IMG/VR virus record: IMGVR_UViG_3300045978_000056
Span: 1-42,352 of that record
Strand: one strand, 5' to 3'
Length of the DNA: 42,352 nucleotides
Origin: a virus
Positions 19,210 through 42,352 of this stretch are shown here, piece after piece (the first letter of the stretch is position 1; each line of letters begins with the position of its first letter). Under the pieces are notes generated by a model. The model was not told the origin of the DNA. It ran no database searches and worked only from the letters and a program-made list of their open reading frames with translations. The position numbers were made by a program, and so were the translations under genes.

Positions 19210-19228
19210 CCGTCATAGCTACCGTTCT

Positions 19229-19260
19229 CGAGGCCCGTCGCCGTAAGGTGATGGGCCTCG
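19229..19260 (+). terminator. Long hairpin with GTAA tetraloop
   Basis: CGAGGCCC (19229-19236) pairs with GGGCCTCG (19253-19260), and GTCGCC pairs with GGTGAT (two G-U). Together they make a continuous 14-bp stem closed by GTAA, a GNRA tetraloop. The following ATTCGTTTGG has only a weak T-run, so it may terminate poorly or stabilise the 3' end of the upstream mRNA. Confidence 0.65.
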
Positions 19261-19278
19261 ATTCGTTTGGAAAATCTT

Positions 19279-19938
19279 ATGATCACGAAAGAACAGTTAC
19301 GTCGCGAATTGAAATATCGGCGACCTGGAGTAACCTCGGATGAAGATTGGGGTCAACTCACGGTTATTGCTGAATACAAACATCTTCCCATCAAAGACAA
19401 GGTCGTCATGGATGTCGGTGGAAATATCGGCGCCTTCTCTATTAGAGCGGCAATGGAAGGTGCGGATCTTGTCTATACATATGAACCCCACCCAGATAAC
19501 TACAAGACTCTGGTGCAGAACTGCGGACCATACCCTGTCATCAAGCACTTCGAGGCTGCGCTGACACAGGATCCTGATGGCAGCAAGATTCCTCTGTACA
19601 TCACCAACGACCGCACGCTAGGGAGCTGCTCGGTTACAGAGTTCCGCGGCCGGAGCAAGGTGATTGTTAAAACGATGAACTTCTTTAAGGAGCTTATCAT
19701 TACCCGAGCATCCTCGATAAAAATGGATTGCGAAGGTGCAGAATGGTCCCTGCTTTCTGTTATGATGCCGGACTGGGTCACGGACATAGCAGCAGAGCTT
19801 CACTTTACGAAGAAATACTGGAGGACAGACTACTATCCTAGAATCTTGAAACACATGGAAGATCAAGGCTTCCAGCAGATACATCCCGCCGTCAACACAG
19901 GGAAGAACTTCCACACCCTCGTGCATTGGAGAAGATAA
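19279..19938 (+). CDS. FkbM-family methyltransferase
   Basis: This 219-residue SAM-dependent methyltransferase starts at ATG 19279, with a weak GGAAAA upstream. Motif I is VVMDVGGNIGAFSI at residues 42-55, the motif II acid is in YEPHPDN near 68-74, and IKMDCEGAEWSLL follows near 142. These are the signature blocks of the FkbM family, which O-methylates sugars and other hydroxyls. It overlaps the glycosyltransferase start (TAATG), so the pair is probably co-translated. An attractive inference is methylation of a sugar attached by that enzyme. The target could be DNA or a host surface glycan. Confidence 0.87.
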   Translation: MITKEQLRRELKYRRPGVTSDEDWGQLTVIAEYKHLPIKDKVVMDVGGNIGAFSIRAAMEGADLVYTYEPHPDNYKTLVQNCGPYPVIKHFEAALTQDPDGSKIPLYITNDRTLGSCSVTEFRGRSKVIVKTMNFFKELIITRASSIKMDCEGAEWSLLSVMMPDWVTDIAAELHFTKKYWRTDYYPRILKHMEDQGFQQIHPAVNTGKNFHTLVHWRR

Positions 19939-21074
19939 TGAGAATTCTAGTGCCGATGTTCTCCATACAAGACTATGGAGGTATCACGAGTCATATCGAA
20001 TATATGATCCGTGGATTGGCAGAAGCAGATCATCAGGTAGAGCTGGTTCTGCTGAAGAATACGGATATTCCCCCATATGTGAAGCAGTTTGAGGCTCCTG
20101 GTCGTAGCTACGGTTCTCTCACCGGCGGCAACGTCCATCTTATGAAAGGATGGTACGGTGTCGAGGTCATGTCCTACGGGACAGCACAGCGAGCCAAAGA
20201 TTTCGTTAATCACGCCTCTGAGTATGACTATGTAATCTGGGGACTTCCATGTCCGTATGCCGACGAAGGCCATTGGAGAGAACTGTTCACAAGTGGTGTT
20301 CCACAAGTCGCCGTAATACACGACGCACATTACGAGCGAGCTTACGGTCACTTCAAAGACGTCGCAGATTACCTCCGATTCGTAGCTCCTGTCAACGAGA
20401 GCGCGTTGGGTGCTCTAAAGAAATTTCCAGGAGAAGTACGACTCATTAACAACGGACATGAGCTGCAAGACTGGAGCAAGCAGAAGCCTTGGGAAGCACG
20501 AAGTAGGAGTGCTATCTGTGCTCATGTATGGAAGGGCTGGAAGCGCATGGATAAAGTCGTGCGCGCGACCCCATTCTTAACTCGCAGTGACATGGTCATG
20601 GCAGGCGACGGTATCGAAGGTCGCTATATGCGGTCTAAGGAGAAATGCAGACATCAGTACAACGGAATCTGGCAAGAGTTTCTCAACGCTGGCGGATCAT
20701 ATCTAGGAATACTGACCCCCGACCAGCTCATGGATCAGTACGCGAATGGAAGGGTCATGGTGGACCTATCCTGGAATGATAAATTCGCTGCGTACGGATG
20801 TCACTACAACAGGAGTATCGTGGAAGGAGCAAACTATGGATGTGTCCCCCTCGTATGTTGGGAGACGTTCAAGAATACAGAGATCTTCAAAGAAGGCGAT
20901 TACATCCCGGTCCAGGCAGTCTGGGCGAAATCTTCCGCAGCAGAAATCGCGGATGCTATTGACGCTGCGGCGAACCTTCATCCGGTGGATGCAGAGTGTT
21001 GTCTTGATATGCTCCGTCGTATCCTACAAAAGCACTTCGATTATCGTGTCAATAGCCTCCGCTACTTATACTAG
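19938..21074 (+). CDS. GT-B glycosyltransferase
   Basis: This 378-residue protein starts at ATG 19938, overlapping the methyltransferase stop. The N-terminus, MRILVPMFSIQDYGGITSHI, is the nucleotide-fold opening of GT4-type enzymes with the glycine-rich acceptor loop. The C-terminal half has WKGWKRMDKVVRA and VMAGDG, resembling the donor-binding region. GANYGCVPLVCWE fits the conserved E-x7-E region where family 4 enzymes hold the nucleotide sugar. In phages such enzymes glycosylate modified DNA bases or alter host polysaccharide. Its place just upstream of base-modification genes favours DNA. The substrate is unproven. Confidence 0.78.
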   Translation: MRILVPMFSIQDYGGITSHIEYMIRGLAEADHQVELVLLKNTDIPPYVKQFEAPGRSYGSLTGGNVHLMKGWYGVEVMSYGTAQRAKDFVNHASEYDYVIWGLPCPYADEGHWRELFTSGVPQVAVIHDAHYERAYGHFKDVADYLRFVAPVNESALGALKKFPGEVRLINNGHELQDWSKQKPWEARSRSAICAHVWKGWKRMDKVVRATPFLTRSDMVMAGDGIEGRYMRSKEKCRHQYNGIWQEFLNAGGSYLGILTPDQLMDQYANGRVMVDLSWNDKFAAYGCHYNRSIVEGANYGCVPLVCWETFKNTEIFKEGDYIPVQAVWAKSSAAEIADAIDAAANLHPVDAECCLDMLRRILQKHFDYRVNSLRYLY

Positions 21075-21087
21075 GTGGGGTGCTCGG

Positions 21088-21159
21088 ATGGCCCTTAAAC
21101 TTTACGCCAGGACCACTCGTAGAGCCCTACAACGCACGCGAGTAGTGGGGGTGCGGTAG
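21088..21159 (+). CDS. Possible 23-residue basic peptide
   Basis: The short frame begins at ATG 21088 and encodes a very basic peptide (LKLYARTTRRALQRTR). No clear ribosome site lies upstream. It fills most of the 136-base gap between the glycosyltransferase and HNH genes. It is more likely chance than a gene. Confidence 0.2.
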   Translation: MALKLYARTTRRALQRTRVVGVR

Positions 21160-21172
21160 GGGCCTACCCCTA
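21157..21172 (+). other. Hairpin in the gap before the HNH gene
   Basis: TAGGGG-CCTA-CCCCTA forms a perfect 6-bp stem with a tetraloop. No T-run follows. It marks the boundary between normal-composition sequence and the AT-rich HNH gene and could be a weak terminator. Confidence 0.4.
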
Positions 21173-21210
21173 AATGACAATGCGTCCTAGACGTTTATAG
21201 GCTGTCGATT

Positions 21211-21615
21211 ATGTCAACAGAAAGAACCATAATTGATTGTTACTATAGTGATCATGAATCCATTAACTTTTTCGAGTGTGTCTACTGCGGAGGACCGGCA
21301 AGCACAATAGATCATGTACCTCCTATATCATTTCTAAGTAGAGTTGATGATAAACACAGATTCAAACCAAGGAGATTCAGAAGTTGCGAAGAATGTAATC
21401 ACTTGCTCGGCCCATATCTAGGCAATACTCTACGAGAACGTAGGAAGTTTCTTCGTGCTAGATACGAAGAAAGATATCGTAAAATTCTCAGCATTCCTAA
21501 TTGGACAGAAAGTGCTCTTGATGAAATGGGTCCTAATCTCTACAAGTATATCATTAGTAAACAAGATTTACGACGATATCTTAGAAAACGAATGTCCAAT
21601 TTAGGAGTCTGCTAA
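21211..21615 (+). CDS. HNH-type endonuclease, possibly acquired
   Basis: This 134-residue protein has CVYCGG (C-x2-C), STIDHVPPIS with the D-H pair of an HNH beta-beta-alpha core, and SCEECNHLLG supplying the second metal-binding Cys pair and Asn. A basic C-terminal tail follows. The gene is markedly A/T-richer than its neighbours and lacks a good ribosome site, which suggests transfer, as for free-standing homing endonucleases in phages. It sits inside the base-modification block, where an HNH enzyme could also act in restriction. The next gene overlaps its TAA. Confidence 0.72.
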   Translation: MSTERTIIDCYYSDHESINFFECVYCGGPASTIDHVPPISFLSRVDDKHRFKPRRFRSCEECNHLLGPYLGNTLRERRKFLRARYEERYRKILSIPNWTESALDEMGPNLYKYIISKQDLRRYLRKRMSNLGVC

Positions 21616-22421
21616 TGCTGCCGATTAACTTTGAATCTTTCCTCTATTGGATTAGGGAACGGGAGCAAGTGAGGCTCCGGAAAGAGTCTGGAGCAAGGCC
21701 TCCCTGGAGCGCTGATAAGGTCTTCCAGACTACCTACTTCACCAACGTACACAGAGAGGACGACAAAGTCACCAAGTGGATACGAGCGTACTATAGTCCG
21801 CTCGTAGGAGACGATTGGTTTGAGTTCAACATAGTCTTATCCCGATTCCTAAACTGGCCGCCGACACTGGATGCCATCGGTTATGTGAATGACAAGGATT
21901 ACACCTACATCCGGGATATAATGAACAACATAGCGAAGACCGGAGAAAAGGTCTGGGGAGGAGCATATGTCATTACGACGCACGGCATTCCAATGTCTAA
22001 GACAGATTACTTGGTGGACAGAGTCCTTCCTTCTGCTGTTAACAAGATTCCTAGAGATTATCCTAATCTCAAAGAGTCGGCGCAATCATTTATGGAAATC
22101 GAGGGTGTATCGACTTTTCTGGCAGGTCAGATCTTGGCGGATCTCAAGAATACAAAAGGGCATCTTTTAGAGAAAGCCCCTGACTGGTGGTCATTCGCTC
22201 TACCGGGGCCAGGAAGTAGGAGAGGAATGGACTGGCTCTACGCTGAACGGGTGCCTGAATCTCGATGGTCTAGTTGTTTACATGACTTGCAGAGTATGCT
22301 ACAATTAGAAGGTATAACTCTGTGTGCCCAGGATACTCAGAACTGTCTGTGCGAATACGATAAATGGTGTCGTGTCACACTTGGAACTGGTAGGAGCAAG
22401 AGGAAATACTATGGAACTTAG
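21615..22421 (+). CDS. Thymine-hypermodification helical domain protein (aGPT-Pplase2 / HMUDK-helical family)
   Basis: This 268-residue protein starts at ATG 21615 after TTAGGAG. The N-terminus has the family's hallmark run: WIREREQVRLRKESG, then ARPPWSADKVFQ, then FTNVHREDDKVT. EIEGVSTFLAGQILADL looks like a helix-hairpin-helix, as expected for this DNA-glycosylase-like fold. C-terminal Cys are in CAQDTQNCLCEYDKWC. Homologues, alone or fused to a P-loop kinase, act on 5-hydroxymethyluracil in phage DNA during thymine hypermodification. No P-loop is present here. It overlaps the thymidylate-synthase-like gene. The family call comes from motif recall and needs a profile search. Confidence 0.68.
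   Translation: MLPINFESFLYWIREREQVRLRKESGARPPWSADKVFQTTYFTNVHREDDKVTKWIRAYYSPLVGDDWFEFNIVLSRFLNWPPTLDAIGYVNDKDYTYIRDIMNNIAKTGEKVWGGAYVITTHGIPMSKTDYLVDRVLPSAVNKIPRDYPNLKESAQSFMEIEGVSTFLAGQILADLKNTKGHLLEKAPDWWSFALPGPGSRRGMDWLYAERVPESRWSSCLHDLQSMLQLEGITLCAQDTQNCLCEYDKWCRVTLGTGRSKRKYYGT
22277..22305 (+). promoter_or_regulatory. Internal promoter for the thymidylate-synthase-like gene
   Basis: -35 TTTACA (22277-22282), 17-bp spacer, -10 TACAAT (22300-22305), preceded by TGC (extended -10). It lies inside the end of the preceding gene, about 100 bases upstream of ATG 22411. It lacks the TTGC -35 typical of this genome. Confidence 0.6.
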
Positions 22422-23493
22422 AGCACCGAATGTCCCTCGTGCTTATGCAGAGGGCCTCTGGCTATTTCGTACATCAGGACAAATCGAGGATACACGAAAT
22501 GGTCCGGCGGTCGTGCTGCCGAACCCGGTCATGCTCACCATAGAGAACCCAAAGCAGAGAGTACTATTCTGTCCAATCCGCAACGCGAACCCATTCTTCC
22601 ACGTGATGGAGACAGTGTGGATGCTCGCCGGTGAGCGGGATGTTCACTGGCTCAAACGATTTAACCGGAATATAGTGAACTATGCAGACGAAGGAGTAAT
22701 CCACGGGGCGTATGGATATCGGTGGTTTGTCCATTGGGGTGACCAGATTGCAAGGGTGATCAAGCAACTACAAGATGACCCAGAGACAAGGCAAGCAGTC
22801 ATCAGTATGTGGGATCCTGCTACGGACTGGCAGTCACACTGGAAAGACAGACCGTGCAATGTCGCGCTCATGTTTCGTCACGTGAATGGTGGTCTGAACA
22901 TGACAGTGTGCAACCGGAGCAATGACTTCGTGTGGGGAATGATGGGTGCGAACGCTGTTCACCTCACGTATCTCCATGAACTCATAGCTACGGCGGTTGG
23001 AATCCCGGTGGGGGAATATATCGTATTCACGAACAACCTCCATTTCTACGTTGATCTCTACCCCAATGCTGAAGAGATATGGGCCAGTGATCGACCGGTG
23101 GACCCATACCCGCTCATTTCTCACTACCCGCTCTTGCAACCCGACGAATACTACAAGGATCTATTGCAAGACTGCTACAATCTGGTGAACAACGAGGGAG
23201 ATCAGTACCACACTCTGTGGATGAGGCATGTCGCATTGCCAATCTACATGGCATACCTCGATAAGGAGACTGACCGTCTATGGGTAAACCAGATAAAGGC
23301 AAAGGACTGGAGGATGGCCTGCCTCTCTTGGCTGGAGCGAAACAGATGGTCGAAACCCAAAGGAACGGAGCCAACGTCCGAAGATTTCACACCGTCCCGC
23401 TCCTCAACCCCGAAACGGTCGGCCATCATTCAGGAAATGTCGTTGCGCTCTGTTATTTCCTCACAAGAGGAGGAGCCTCCGCAGAGCTCTTAA
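22411..23493 (+). CDS. Thymidylate-synthase-family enzyme, candidate dUMP hydroxymethylase
   Basis: This 360-residue enzyme transfers a one-carbon unit from folate to a deoxyuridylate. ATG 22411 has GAGG eight bases upstream. It shows RPCNVALMF with the catalytic Cys near 149, then NRSNDFVWGMMGANAVHL near 168, matching the phosphate-binding Arg-Ser and the substrate-Asn region, and TNNLHFYVD. The N-terminus (NANPFFHVMETVWMLAGE) is typical of phage family members. Sequence cannot separate methylation (dTMP) from hydroxymethylation (hmdUMP). The neighbouring hypermodification domain favours the latter. The last ~50 residues are low-complexity and overlap the HD gene, so the original stop may have been lost. 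Confidence 0.85.
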   Translation: MELRAPNVPRAYAEGLWLFRTSGQIEDTRNGPAVVLPNPVMLTIENPKQRVLFCPIRNANPFFHVMETVWMLAGERDVHWLKRFNRNIVNYADEGVIHGAYGYRWFVHWGDQIARVIKQLQDDPETRQAVISMWDPATDWQSHWKDRPCNVALMFRHVNGGLNMTVCNRSNDFVWGMMGANAVHLTYLHELIATAVGIPVGEYIVFTNNLHFYVDLYPNAEEIWASDRPVDPYPLISHYPLLQPDEYYKDLLQDCYNLVNNEGDQYHTLWMRHVALPIYMAYLDKETDRLWVNQIKAKDWRMACLSWLERNRWSKPKGTEPTSEDFTPSRSSTPKRSAIIQEMSLRSVISSQEEEPPQSS

Positions 23494-23843
23494 TGGCAGC
23501 GCTCTTCCATGACATTGCTGAACAGTTCACAGGCGACGTACCCTCTCCCGCGAAGTGGTCTAGCAAAGCGTTCGCTAAATCACTAGAGAAGGTAGAAGAG
23601 TGGTTCGCTACGACTAATGGATTCTGGCACATCTTCGCAGCCCTGAAGGAAGAGGAACGTGAGATACTCAAGGCAGCGGACATGCTCGATCTAGTTCTTA
23701 AGTGTAAGGAGGAAATCGCCCTTGGCAATCAAAACATGGAAGGACCAAAAAAGAATGGCATTGAGTACCTCCGTGGGTTACACTTACCTAGTGGTGCAGC
23801 GAGATTAGTTAGGAGTTTGCTGGATGAAGACGAAAGCAAATGA
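23346..23843 (+). CDS. HD-domain phosphohydrolase (nucleotidase-like)
   Basis: This 165-residue protein starts at ATG 23346, eight bases after GGAG; an upstream ATG at 23280 has no site. It shows NVRRFHTVP, VGHHSGNVVAL with the first His, LFHDIAEQFTGD with the H-D pair, and LKAADMLDLV with the distal Asp. This is the YfbR-like metal-dependent 5'-nucleotidase/dNTPase arrangement. Phages with modified DNA often carry enzymes that remove the normal nucleotide, so dTMP or dCMP hydrolysis is a plausible role. It overlaps the preceding gene by 148 bases in a different frame. Confidence 0.82.
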   Translation: MVETQRNGANVRRFHTVPLLNPETVGHHSGNVVALCYFLTRGGASAELLMAALFHDIAEQFTGDVPSPAKWSSKAFAKSLEKVEEWFATTNGFWHIFAALKEEEREILKAADMLDLVLKCKEEIALGNQNMEGPKKNGIEYLRGLHLPSGAARLVRSLLDEDESK

Positions 23844-24168
23844 CAGGCAGGTGGGAGGAACCCACTACCAGACAGGTGGGGTCCAACATTGGGATTGGTG
23901 TCTCGCGGCGGACCTGGACTACTTTCAAGGCAATATCACCAAACTTGTCGGCAGATGGAAGCGCAAGAATGGCATGGAGGATCTTTACAAAGCTCAACAT
24001 TATCTGGAGAAGTACATTGAGGAACAAGAGAGAAAACTTCGGGCAACAAAAGAAGAGTGCAAGGTGTTTGACACCTCTGATCCCCTCCGTGGCCCTATCG
24101 ACGAAGGTACGTCTCCAGGAAACGGATATGTCGACCAAGATAGAGTCGGCAAAGGCGTGGCTCGGTGA
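23824..24168 (+). CDS. DUF3310 family protein
   Basis: This 114-residue protein starts at ATG 23824, overlapping the HD gene by 20 bases. The family core is clear: VGGTHYQTGGVQHWDWCLAA, then YFQGNITKLVGRWKRKNGME and DLYKAQHYLEKYIEEQ. DUF3310 proteins are common in phage nucleotide-metabolism regions. Their activity is not established to my knowledge. The C-terminal ~30 residues are low-complexity and overlap a further short frame. Confidence 0.85.
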   Translation: MKTKANDRQVGGTHYQTGGVQHWDWCLAADLDYFQGNITKLVGRWKRKNGMEDLYKAQHYLEKYIEEQERKLRATKEECKVFDTSDPLRGPIDEGTSPGNGYVDQDRVGKGVAR

Positions 24169-41815: not shown

Positions 41816-42182
41816 CGGTGGGCCTCCGCCTCCGGGCTTCTTCCAACCGTGCGCGACCGCTCGCATTAGCTTCGCTTGCGCTGCACTTTTCGAAGGCATT
41901 GATGACGTCCTGTTTCAGAGATGGGTCCGGTTTCTGTCTATCTTCAGCCGCCTTTTTCCAGGTCTCGGTAAAGTCATCTGCAGTCGTGAGGCTATGTCGA
42001 GCCATGTATTCGCGGTGAGATTTACGCGAGTTGATAAGTTCACCATGTATTCCACGAAATGGAGCAGAGCTATAAATCCTATCATTATACCGCCAACCAT
42101 CGCCCGAACGACTAGGTCTCTGGGACGCAGGTCCTTCGACCATAGACTTAGTTGCTTCGTCATAATGATAAGTCCTACGCAT
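41802..42182 (-). CDS. Small protein downstream of portal, complete copy
   Basis: This 126-residue protein starts at ATG 42182, overlapping the stop of the portal allele (ATGCGTAG). Core: GDGWRYNDRIYSSAPFRG, then INSRKSHREYMARHSLTTAD, familiar from proteins found just after portal in podophages. The C-terminus is charged (CSASEANASGRARLEEARRR). The I-N-S-R-x-x-HREY segment recalls a short DNA-binding or zinc-finger-like fold, but function is unknown. A diverged N-terminal copy is at 1-183. Confidence 0.75.
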   Translation of the reverse strand: MRRTYHYDEATKSMVEGPASQRPSRSGDGWRYNDRIYSSAPFRGIHGELINSRKSHREYMARHSLTTADDFTETWKKAAEDRQKPDPSLKQDVINAFEKCSASEANASGRARLEEARRRRPTDEGS

Positions 42183-42352
42183 TCCCAGCTCCGTTCTTCG
42201 GCTTCTGACGCATCTGCTCCATCTTCATATCATGCTGTTCACGACTTGCAGTGTTCTGGATTTCCGTCGTTTCCCTCTGCTGCTCAATATTCAGCGCAGC
42301 GTCGACATACTGCTCGCGAGCCTTGAGCTGTGCCTCCTCTCGCCGTATGCCA
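42000..42352. repeat. Right copy of diverged terminal repeat
   Basis: Homologous to positions 1-393, with identical flanks and a diverged, 40-base shorter middle. See the left copy. The unit length between the repeats is about 41,999 bp. Confidence 0.9.
42175..42352 (-). CDS. Partial portal gene, C-terminal end (second allele)
   Basis: This encodes the last ~58 residues of a portal protein cut by the window edge. It matches the C-terminal coiled coil of the complete portal at 216-2240 but ends NGAGNA instead of TNGGSG, and it contains SREQHDMKMEQMRQK where the other has NREQHDMKMEQMRQK. Its TAG overlaps the next ATG, so this allele has tighter coupling than the left-end allele. Confidence 0.8.
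   Translation of the reverse strand, partial: GIRREEAQLKAREQYVDAALNIEQQRETTEIQNTASREQHDMKMEQMRQKPKNGAGNA

Follow-up and report, generated by a model that had tools for sequence, protein, structure and literature searches.

A candidate phage DNA-base glycosylation cassette in which a GT-B glycosyltransferase stands in for the 5-hmdU DNA kinase

We investigated what base, if any, is made by a phage gene cluster that combines enzymes of thymidine hypermodification with a glycosyltransferase. Hypermodification through 5-hydroxymethyl-deoxyuridine (hmdU) and a DNA kinase is already known from phages M6, ViI, and phiW-14 (PMC6449724, PMC11946847). The cluster discussed here lies on the plus strand of the IMG/VR virus record IMGVR_UViG_3300045978_000056, whose 42,352 bp constitute the window analyzed. 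Between positions 19,279 and 23,843, it encodes an FkbM-family methyltransferase, a GT-B glycosyltransferase (GT), an HNH protein, a helical protein (HEL), a thymidylate-synthase-family (TS) enzyme, and an HD nucleotidase. All six open reading frames (ORFs) listed by an earlier, sequence-only reading were found on the plus strand in the order it gave; its description of a head-to-tail array holds for order and strand, but GT and HNH are 136 bp apart, and TS and HD share 214 bp of overlapping frames. We consider, with a probability of roughly 0.74, that the cluster is a DNA-base glycosylation cassette built on a thymidine-hypermodification chassis, in which the glycosyltransferase replaces the 5-hmdU DNA kinase. 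If this assignment from sequence comparison is right, some of the thymine of this phage is probably replaced by a sugar-bearing, perhaps methylated, base.

Exclusion of kinase and glycosyltransferase

The P-loop 5-hmdU DNA kinase, which had been reported as unseen, is truly absent. Searching the window in all six frames with kinase sequences and profiles gave no match (lowest E values, 5.5 and 0.1), nor did the kinase profile match the whole record. As a positive control, the same profile matched 15 of 15 kinase-type records (E, 1e-53 to 1e-73), and of 25 other transferase- or HEL-type whole records, 24 were empty and one gave a 15-bit fragment of 31 amino acids. Conversely, the profile of the window's GT matched none of the 15 kinase-type records. 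The window also contained no M6 gp51-type amino-acid transferase (phmmer with M6 gp51, Pam3_47, and Sonora_039, plus a profile search) and no homologue of the pyridoxal phosphate (PLP) or radical-S-adenosylmethionine (radical-SAM) enzymes of M6 or Pam3; the sequence-only reading had likewise seen no PLP or radical-SAM enzyme. Truncation is an unlikely cause of the lack of a kinase, because the two ends of the window overlap imperfectly (positions 1–393 against 42,000–42,352, both flanks identical with a 40-bp difference between them) and little of the genome is probably missing.

We then asked how general this gene content is, by scanning 2.9 million viral contigs with alignments or sequences of HEL, TS, polymerase, and GT, and annotating the resulting loci (numbered with the prefix L) from called ORFs with profiles made for the purpose. 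Single-sequence scans with the window HEL and GT found no close relatives, and alignment queries were needed. The HEL, TS, and polymerase scans gave 131 distinct HEL loci: a kinase was nearby in 48 and a glycosyltransferase of the TET-associated type (TAGT) in 42, three of which also had a radical-SAM gene; the rest carried the GT-B family of the window (8), a family of unrecognized type labeled GTX (7), a radical-SAM gene alone (2), or none of these (24). When all scans were combined, 180 distinct HEL loci comprised 48 with only a kinase, 104 with only a transferase, 28 with neither, and 0 with both (Fisher p = 3e-24, uncorrected for relatedness). The GT-based scan raised the share of GT loci among the 180 and leaves the zero overlap unaffected; the overlap is also 0 without GTX, when 97 loci with a recognized glycosyltransferase are set against the 48 kinase loci. 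Additionally, the amino-acid transferase family occurred in 10 kinase-type loci and in no transferase-type locus. A tree of 152 HEL rows requires 12 or more changes of the kinase label, with 8 changes forced by well-supported branches, so kinase and transferase have been swapped repeatedly.

In most relatives lacking the kinase, the slot is occupied by a family that includes the TET-associated glycosyltransferases of PF20691. A representative of the TAGT cluster matched PF20691 with an E value of 2.8e-16, and two of three members searched against Pfam passed its cut-off (L062 and L041), whereas L014 had no match. A culturable relative, Brevibacterium phage LuckyBarnes (L252, NC_047851:5433-9448; host, B. 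iodinum ATCC 15728), encodes HEL (gp38), two TAGTs (gp39 and gp40), and the synthase (gp41) in a row, with no kinase gene annotated in this block. GTX consists of proteins of 300–380 amino acids beside HEL in L073, L079, L100, L114, L115, L121, and L133, never near a kinase; we do not claim it as a glycosyltransferase, given that Pfam gave no match for it and its profile was similar to neither the GT-B nor the TAGT family. A radical-SAM/SPASM protein was also observed in the HEL slot of L043, L053, L160, L102, and L142, with or without a TAGT, and may represent a further variant of the pathway.

The GT-B glycosyltransferase and its neighbors

The gene in the kinase's place in the window (19,938–21,074, plus strand; 378 amino acids) encodes a candidate DNA-base glycosyltransferase, as judged from its fold, its relatives, and its neighborhood. 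Alone, it matched Pfam only weakly (PF13439, E = 1.4e-3, and weak GT4-type models); its homologues in L145 and L162 pass the cut-off of PF00534. The window GT had no match to PF20691, and hhalign gave a probability of 0.1% between the GT-B and TAGT families; by these profile comparisons, it belongs to a GT-B family unrelated to TAGT. Its AlphaFold model (predicted local distance difference test score, 94.3; 39-row alignment) has the GT-B fold, with Z scores of 22–28 over the whole chain against dozens of GT-B enzymes. Entries of T4 DNA alpha-glucosyltransferase (AGT) ranked first to fifth among 998 PDB chains aligned (Z = 27.3–27.8), with a root-mean-square deviation of 3.6–4.0 Å over about 330 residues (334 for the top match) and 13–14% identity, and the top AGT matches include complexes with DNA containing hydroxymethyluracil. 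The AGT-like fold of the model favors DNA as the acceptor.

A reverse scan with the GT family alone yielded 62 distinct viral loci, 52 of which carry HEL and TS, usually in the order HEL-GT-TS-polymerase; FkbM was also present in 8 of the loci with HEL and TS. A scan of 84,980 bacterial and archaeal genomes located the family on just two contigs of metagenome-assembled genomes, both with HEL-GT-TS; it is thus nearly confined to phages. No named phage was matched by tblastn with the GT of the window or of L145. In marine siphovirus-like loci with HEL-GT-TS, a cytidylyltransferase-like gene (PF01467, about 142 amino acids) follows the polymerase directly (L185:12500-12925) and possibly serves in donor-sugar activation.

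Relatives also carry genes for making donors near the GT family, which fits a GT that transfers sugars. UDP-galactopyranose mutase lies beside it in L174, L175, L179, and L181, where its 342.5 bits exceed the cut-off of the NCBIfam equivalog, and a gene resembling UDP-sulfoquinovose synthase (SQD1) occurs in L178 (E = 2.4e-95, below the equivalog cut-off; E = 3.6e-92 against the SQD1 structure). Sulfotransferases (PF03567) and proteins resembling adenosine 5'-phosphosulfate (APS) kinase, which belong to the supply of 3'-phosphoadenosine 5'-phosphosulfate, were found near the family as well. The SQD1-like gene adjoins the GT-B gene (L178:5772-8263, L177:5817-8263), and sulfoquinovose or a related sugar is the predicted donor there. 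Four clusters (L181:4395-11871, L175:4377-13728, L179:5044-13067, and L174:7001-14484) hold an APS-kinase-like protein, UDP-galactopyranose mutase, sulfotransferase, GT-B, TAGT, HEL, and synthase together, and are predicted to make a sulfated galactofuranosyl-type DNA base. A kinase label in L175 was rejected as a 5-hmdU kinase, the protein being APS-kinase-like.

In the window, GT is preceded by the FkbM-family S-adenosylmethionine-dependent methyltransferase (19,279–19,938, plus strand; 219 amino acids; PF05050, 39.8 bits, cut-off 22.7, E = 6.8e-10; TIGR01444, 57.6 bits, cut-off 37.7), a candidate sugar O-methyltransferase. The two genes abut each other here and in L172, the closest array, whose GT is 56% identical to that of the window, and another lineage has the order HEL-FkbM-x-GT-TS (L162, L226, L234, and others). 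FkbM was present in 10 transferase-type HEL loci and in none of the 48 kinase-type loci; a PDB sequence search with it gave nothing significant. Because FkbM adjoins GT in L172 and is grouped with it in the other lineage, the two appear tied, and the simplest reading of the tie, although the least certain step of the pathway, is that FkbM may methylate the transferred sugar. The L172 array is FkbM-GT-HEL-TS with no HNH gene between GT and HEL. The HNH gene of the window (21,211–21,615, plus strand; 134 amino acids; PF14279, E = 0.1, below the cut-off; phrog_36777, E = 6.5e-18) is therefore most simply an insertion in this lineage, probably of a homing-type or other HNH nuclease, and a passenger, with no support as a member of the pathway.

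GT-B and FkbM families commonly take part in surface polysaccharide synthesis, and some phages have FkbM homologues with no TS gene close by, so both enzymes might instead act on the host surface, a receptor, or a virion protein and merely neighbor a cluster for nucleotide metabolism. We regard this as improbable: the GT family is nearly phage-confined and sits with HEL and TS in most of its loci, which makes chance recruitment of a surface GT unlikely; it occupies the kinase slot and never accompanies a kinase; and unrelated TET-associated glycosyltransferases fill the same slot.

HEL, the synthase, and the nucleotide enzymes

HEL (21,615–22,421, plus strand; 268 amino acids) matched PF18723 (HMUDK_hel) with 101.5 bits against a cut-off of 25 (E = 7e-29; profile positions 4–276 of 281). 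It is homologous to M6 gp55, phiW-14 gp72, Pam3_50 (annotated as aGPT-Pplase1), Sonora_042, and RHph_008, and had no detectable homology to the other aGPT-PPlase group (M6 gp51, Pam3_47, Sonora_039, and P26218 gp14). The sequence-only reading had described it as an aGPT-Pplase2/HMUDK-helical homologue; the HMUDK assignment stands, whereas aGPT-Pplase2, the annotation carried by Pam3_47, does not apply. With PF18723 far above its cut-off, the protein does not fall outside the aGPT-Pplase/HMUDK families. In M6, Pam3, RHph_I65, Sonora, and Guetzie, HEL comes just after a P-loop protein (in M6, gp54, with GCNGSGKT) that we take as the 5-hmdU DNA kinase.

The AlphaFold model of HEL (predicted score, 96.3), built on a 72-row alignment of IMG/VR loci only, has HhH-GPD DNA glycosylases and the queuosine salvage enzyme DUF2419 as its nearest solved folds, consistently at the top of the list (Z about 10); PDB sequence searches with HEL gave nothing significant. 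From the model, we infer that HEL binds DNA and flips or presents a base, as a candidate partner of the group-transferring enzyme. This bears on a different order of events, in which the sugar would be attached at the nucleotide level, to hmdUMP or its triphosphate, before incorporation; SP-15 is reported to make its core modification by a nucleotide-level route (PMC5977210). Such an order is quite improbable here, as the HEL model modestly resembles DNA glycosylases, its family is tied to hypermodification at the DNA level, and the GT model is most like a DNA glucosyltransferase.

The TS enzyme (22,411–23,493, plus strand; 360 amino acids) matched PF00303 with 79.4 bits and phrog_5131 with an E value of 2e-92, and is 36% identical to M6 gp58. 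In the thymidylate-synthase family, an Asn sets uracil specificity, and a Trp and the C-terminus play a shielding role. The window protein keeps the catalytic Cys149 (PCN) and Asn181 (GANAV), at the aligned position of the Asn that selects uracil in thymidylate synthases; the td-type Trp-bearing segment and the C-terminal tail are missing in it, in M6 gp58, and in the ViI-like homologue. Its best score against NCBIfam thymidylate synthase equivalogs was 77.9 bits (cut-off, 174.55), which places it outside ThyA. Because of its family, its conserved residues, and its homology to M6, it is predicted to be a dUMP hydroxymethylase that supplies hmdUMP. The family name, the catalytic Cys, and the uracil-type Asn are common to thymidylate synthases, and PMC5977210 warns that the two activities are not safely separable by sequence, which would also suit an ordinary thymidylate synthase in a cluster for nucleotide supply, with no modified base. 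That is a very improbable explanation, considering that the closest phage homologues are M6/YuA-type synthases from phages with DNA hypermodified via hmdU, that the enzyme falls far below all NCBIfam thymidylate synthase cut-offs and misses the td-type Trp segment and C-terminus, and that in the loci examined TS stands beside HEL and mostly also beside a transferase or kinase.

Next comes a YfbR-like HD 5'-deoxynucleotidase (23,280–23,843, plus strand; 187 amino acids, start possibly at 23,346; PF12917, 67.4 bits; phrog_6047, E = 1.1e-31). HD genes recur 3' of TS in M6 and many relatives, and the enzyme probably removes a competing nucleotide. A gene for a DUF3310 protein (23,824–24,168, plus strand; 114 amino acids; PF11753, 30.2 bits) is associated with the cluster, recurring downstream of TS or TS and HD in most relatives. 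It resembles phage families named nucleotide kinase (phrog_236, E = 1.9e-16) and is a possible hmdUMP kinase without a P-loop. HEL is itself named after the 5-hmdU kinase, and either protein might be an unrecognized kinase or transferase that makes a phosphorylated intermediate on the way to an amino-acid-derived base with GT as a later decoration, which is the least probable explanation of all, since neither HEL nor DUF3310 has a Walker A motif, the window lacks amino-acid transferase, PLP, and radical-SAM homologues, and transferase loci lack the amino-acid transferase.

Proposed pathway and its significance

In the pathway that we propose for base glycosylation, the TS-family enzyme would convert dUMP and methylene-tetrahydrofolate to 5-hydroxymethyl-dUMP while the HD nucleotidase depletes dTMP or some other nucleotide that competes. 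Nucleotide kinases of the host, or perhaps DUF3310, would phosphorylate hmdUMP to the triphosphate used by the phage polymerase. HEL, whose fold may be DNA-glycosylase-like and which is retained as its partner varies, would bind the DNA and present the hmdU base, and the GT-B enzyme, with a UDP-sugar as donor, would glycosylate the 5-hydroxymethyl group, the group that other phages phosphorylate. FkbM may then O-methylate the sugar, and the modified base would shield virion DNA from nucleases. The glycosylated, perhaps methylated, hmdU suggested by the sequence-only reading is thus in line with the comparative tests.

Several observations weigh against this pathway. AGT (Z = 27.8) leads TarM (26.7) and HepE (26.4) by only about 1 Z unit, and the GT-B fold is common to many glycosyltransferases that do not act on DNA. 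The likeness of HEL to its nearest folds is modest, helical proteins often reaching Z values of about 10. Neither enzyme is near HEL in 28 of the 180 loci, some of which are cut by contig ends, and FkbM homologues are also encoded by phages outside clusters of this type. Furthermore, HEL is missing nearby on both sides, from a kinase and synthase cluster in P26218 (L003) and from a TAGT and synthase cluster in MW202897 (L253); it is therefore not strictly required, and not universal in such clusters.

The cluster combines traits of several known systems. It shares with M6/YuA, Salmonella phage ViI, and Delftia phage phiW-14 a synthase of dUMP-hydroxymethylase type, HEL (M6 gp55 and phiW-14 gp72), and an HD nucleotidase, and with Pseudomonas phage M6 a family A polymerase near the cluster; unlike these phages, it has GT-B and FkbM genes and lacks the kinase, amino-acid transferase, PLP, and radical-SAM enzymes. 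As in T4, a hydroxymethylpyrimidine from a TS-family enzyme is predicted to undergo post-replicative glycosylation by a GT-B enzyme, with AGT as the best structural match; unlike the hydroxymethylcytosine of T4, the predicted base is a uracil (Asn181), HEL is present, and identity to AGT is 13–14%. T-even phages glycosylate hydroxymethylcytosine, and TAGT has been assigned to di-glucosylation there (PMC13390438); T4 beta-glucosyltransferase is reported to be able to act on hydroxymethyluracil in vitro (PMC4111573). TAGTs (PF20691) occupy this slot, next to HEL and TS, in 42 relatives and in LuckyBarnes, whereas the GT of the window is an unrelated GT-B enzyme, the hydroxymethyl group would come from the synthase, and no TET/JBP dioxygenase was found among the genes profiled. 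The Bacillus phage SP-15, with glucosylated dihydroxypentyluracil, likewise has a sugar-bearing modified uracil in its DNA, but differs in having a core base other than hmdU, ThyX-like synthases, and teichoic-acid-like sugar genes (PMC5977210). In some clades of HTVC023P-type pelagiphages, a synthase, an aGPT-PPlase, a 5'-deoxynucleotidase, and a putative glucosyltransferase lie near the polymerase; the accessible portion of that report treats these genes as auxiliary and describes no kinase replacement, GT-B family, or role of HEL (PMC9599517). We found no literature report of a kinase-to-glycosyltransferase replacement or of this GT-B family, with an earlier mention in the main hypermodification papers possible.

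The setting of the cluster is podovirus-like, with portal and terminase genes at the left end of the window, a family A polymerase, VRR-NUC, and an SNF2-type helicase at 14.5–18.7 kb before the six genes, and late genes on the opposite strand after them. The imperfect terminal repeat probably means that variants were assembled into one genome with circular permutation or terminal redundancy. A megablast search against named phages gave no match. Purine-rich Shine-Dalgarno-like sequences were seen by eye 5' of several starts in the cluster, and a 15-bp GC-rich stem-loop just 5' of the FkbM gene (19,228–19,261) may be a terminator or regulatory hairpin. Promoter-like sites in the cluster region showed no excess over shuffled expectation, and terminator-like sites were only moderately above it. 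A defense island was rejected, the PADLOC scan having given just one marginal match, to FkbM.

The comparison predicts that glycosylation of hmdU by such cassettes is widespread and offers a rule for recognizing them, namely HEL, synthase, and glycosyltransferase with no kinase. It suggests that the HMUDK_hel family has a function independent of the kinase, and it points to new DNA-glycosylating enzymes that may be useful as tools. More broadly, we see an even chance that these loci represent a large, mostly uncultivated class of phages with glycosylated 5-hydroxymethyluracil in their DNA, in which HEL would be a shared base-presenting adaptor for unrelated, interchangeable group-transfer enzymes (P-loop kinase, GT-A TAGT, phage-specific GT-B, and perhaps others), and some members would tailor the sugar with methyl (FkbM), galactofuranose, sulfoquinovose, or sulfate. 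To our knowledge, methylated, galactofuranosyl, sulfoquinovosyl, and sulfated sugars have not been described on DNA so far, and phages that tailor the sugar in these ways would carry DNA bases of new kinds.

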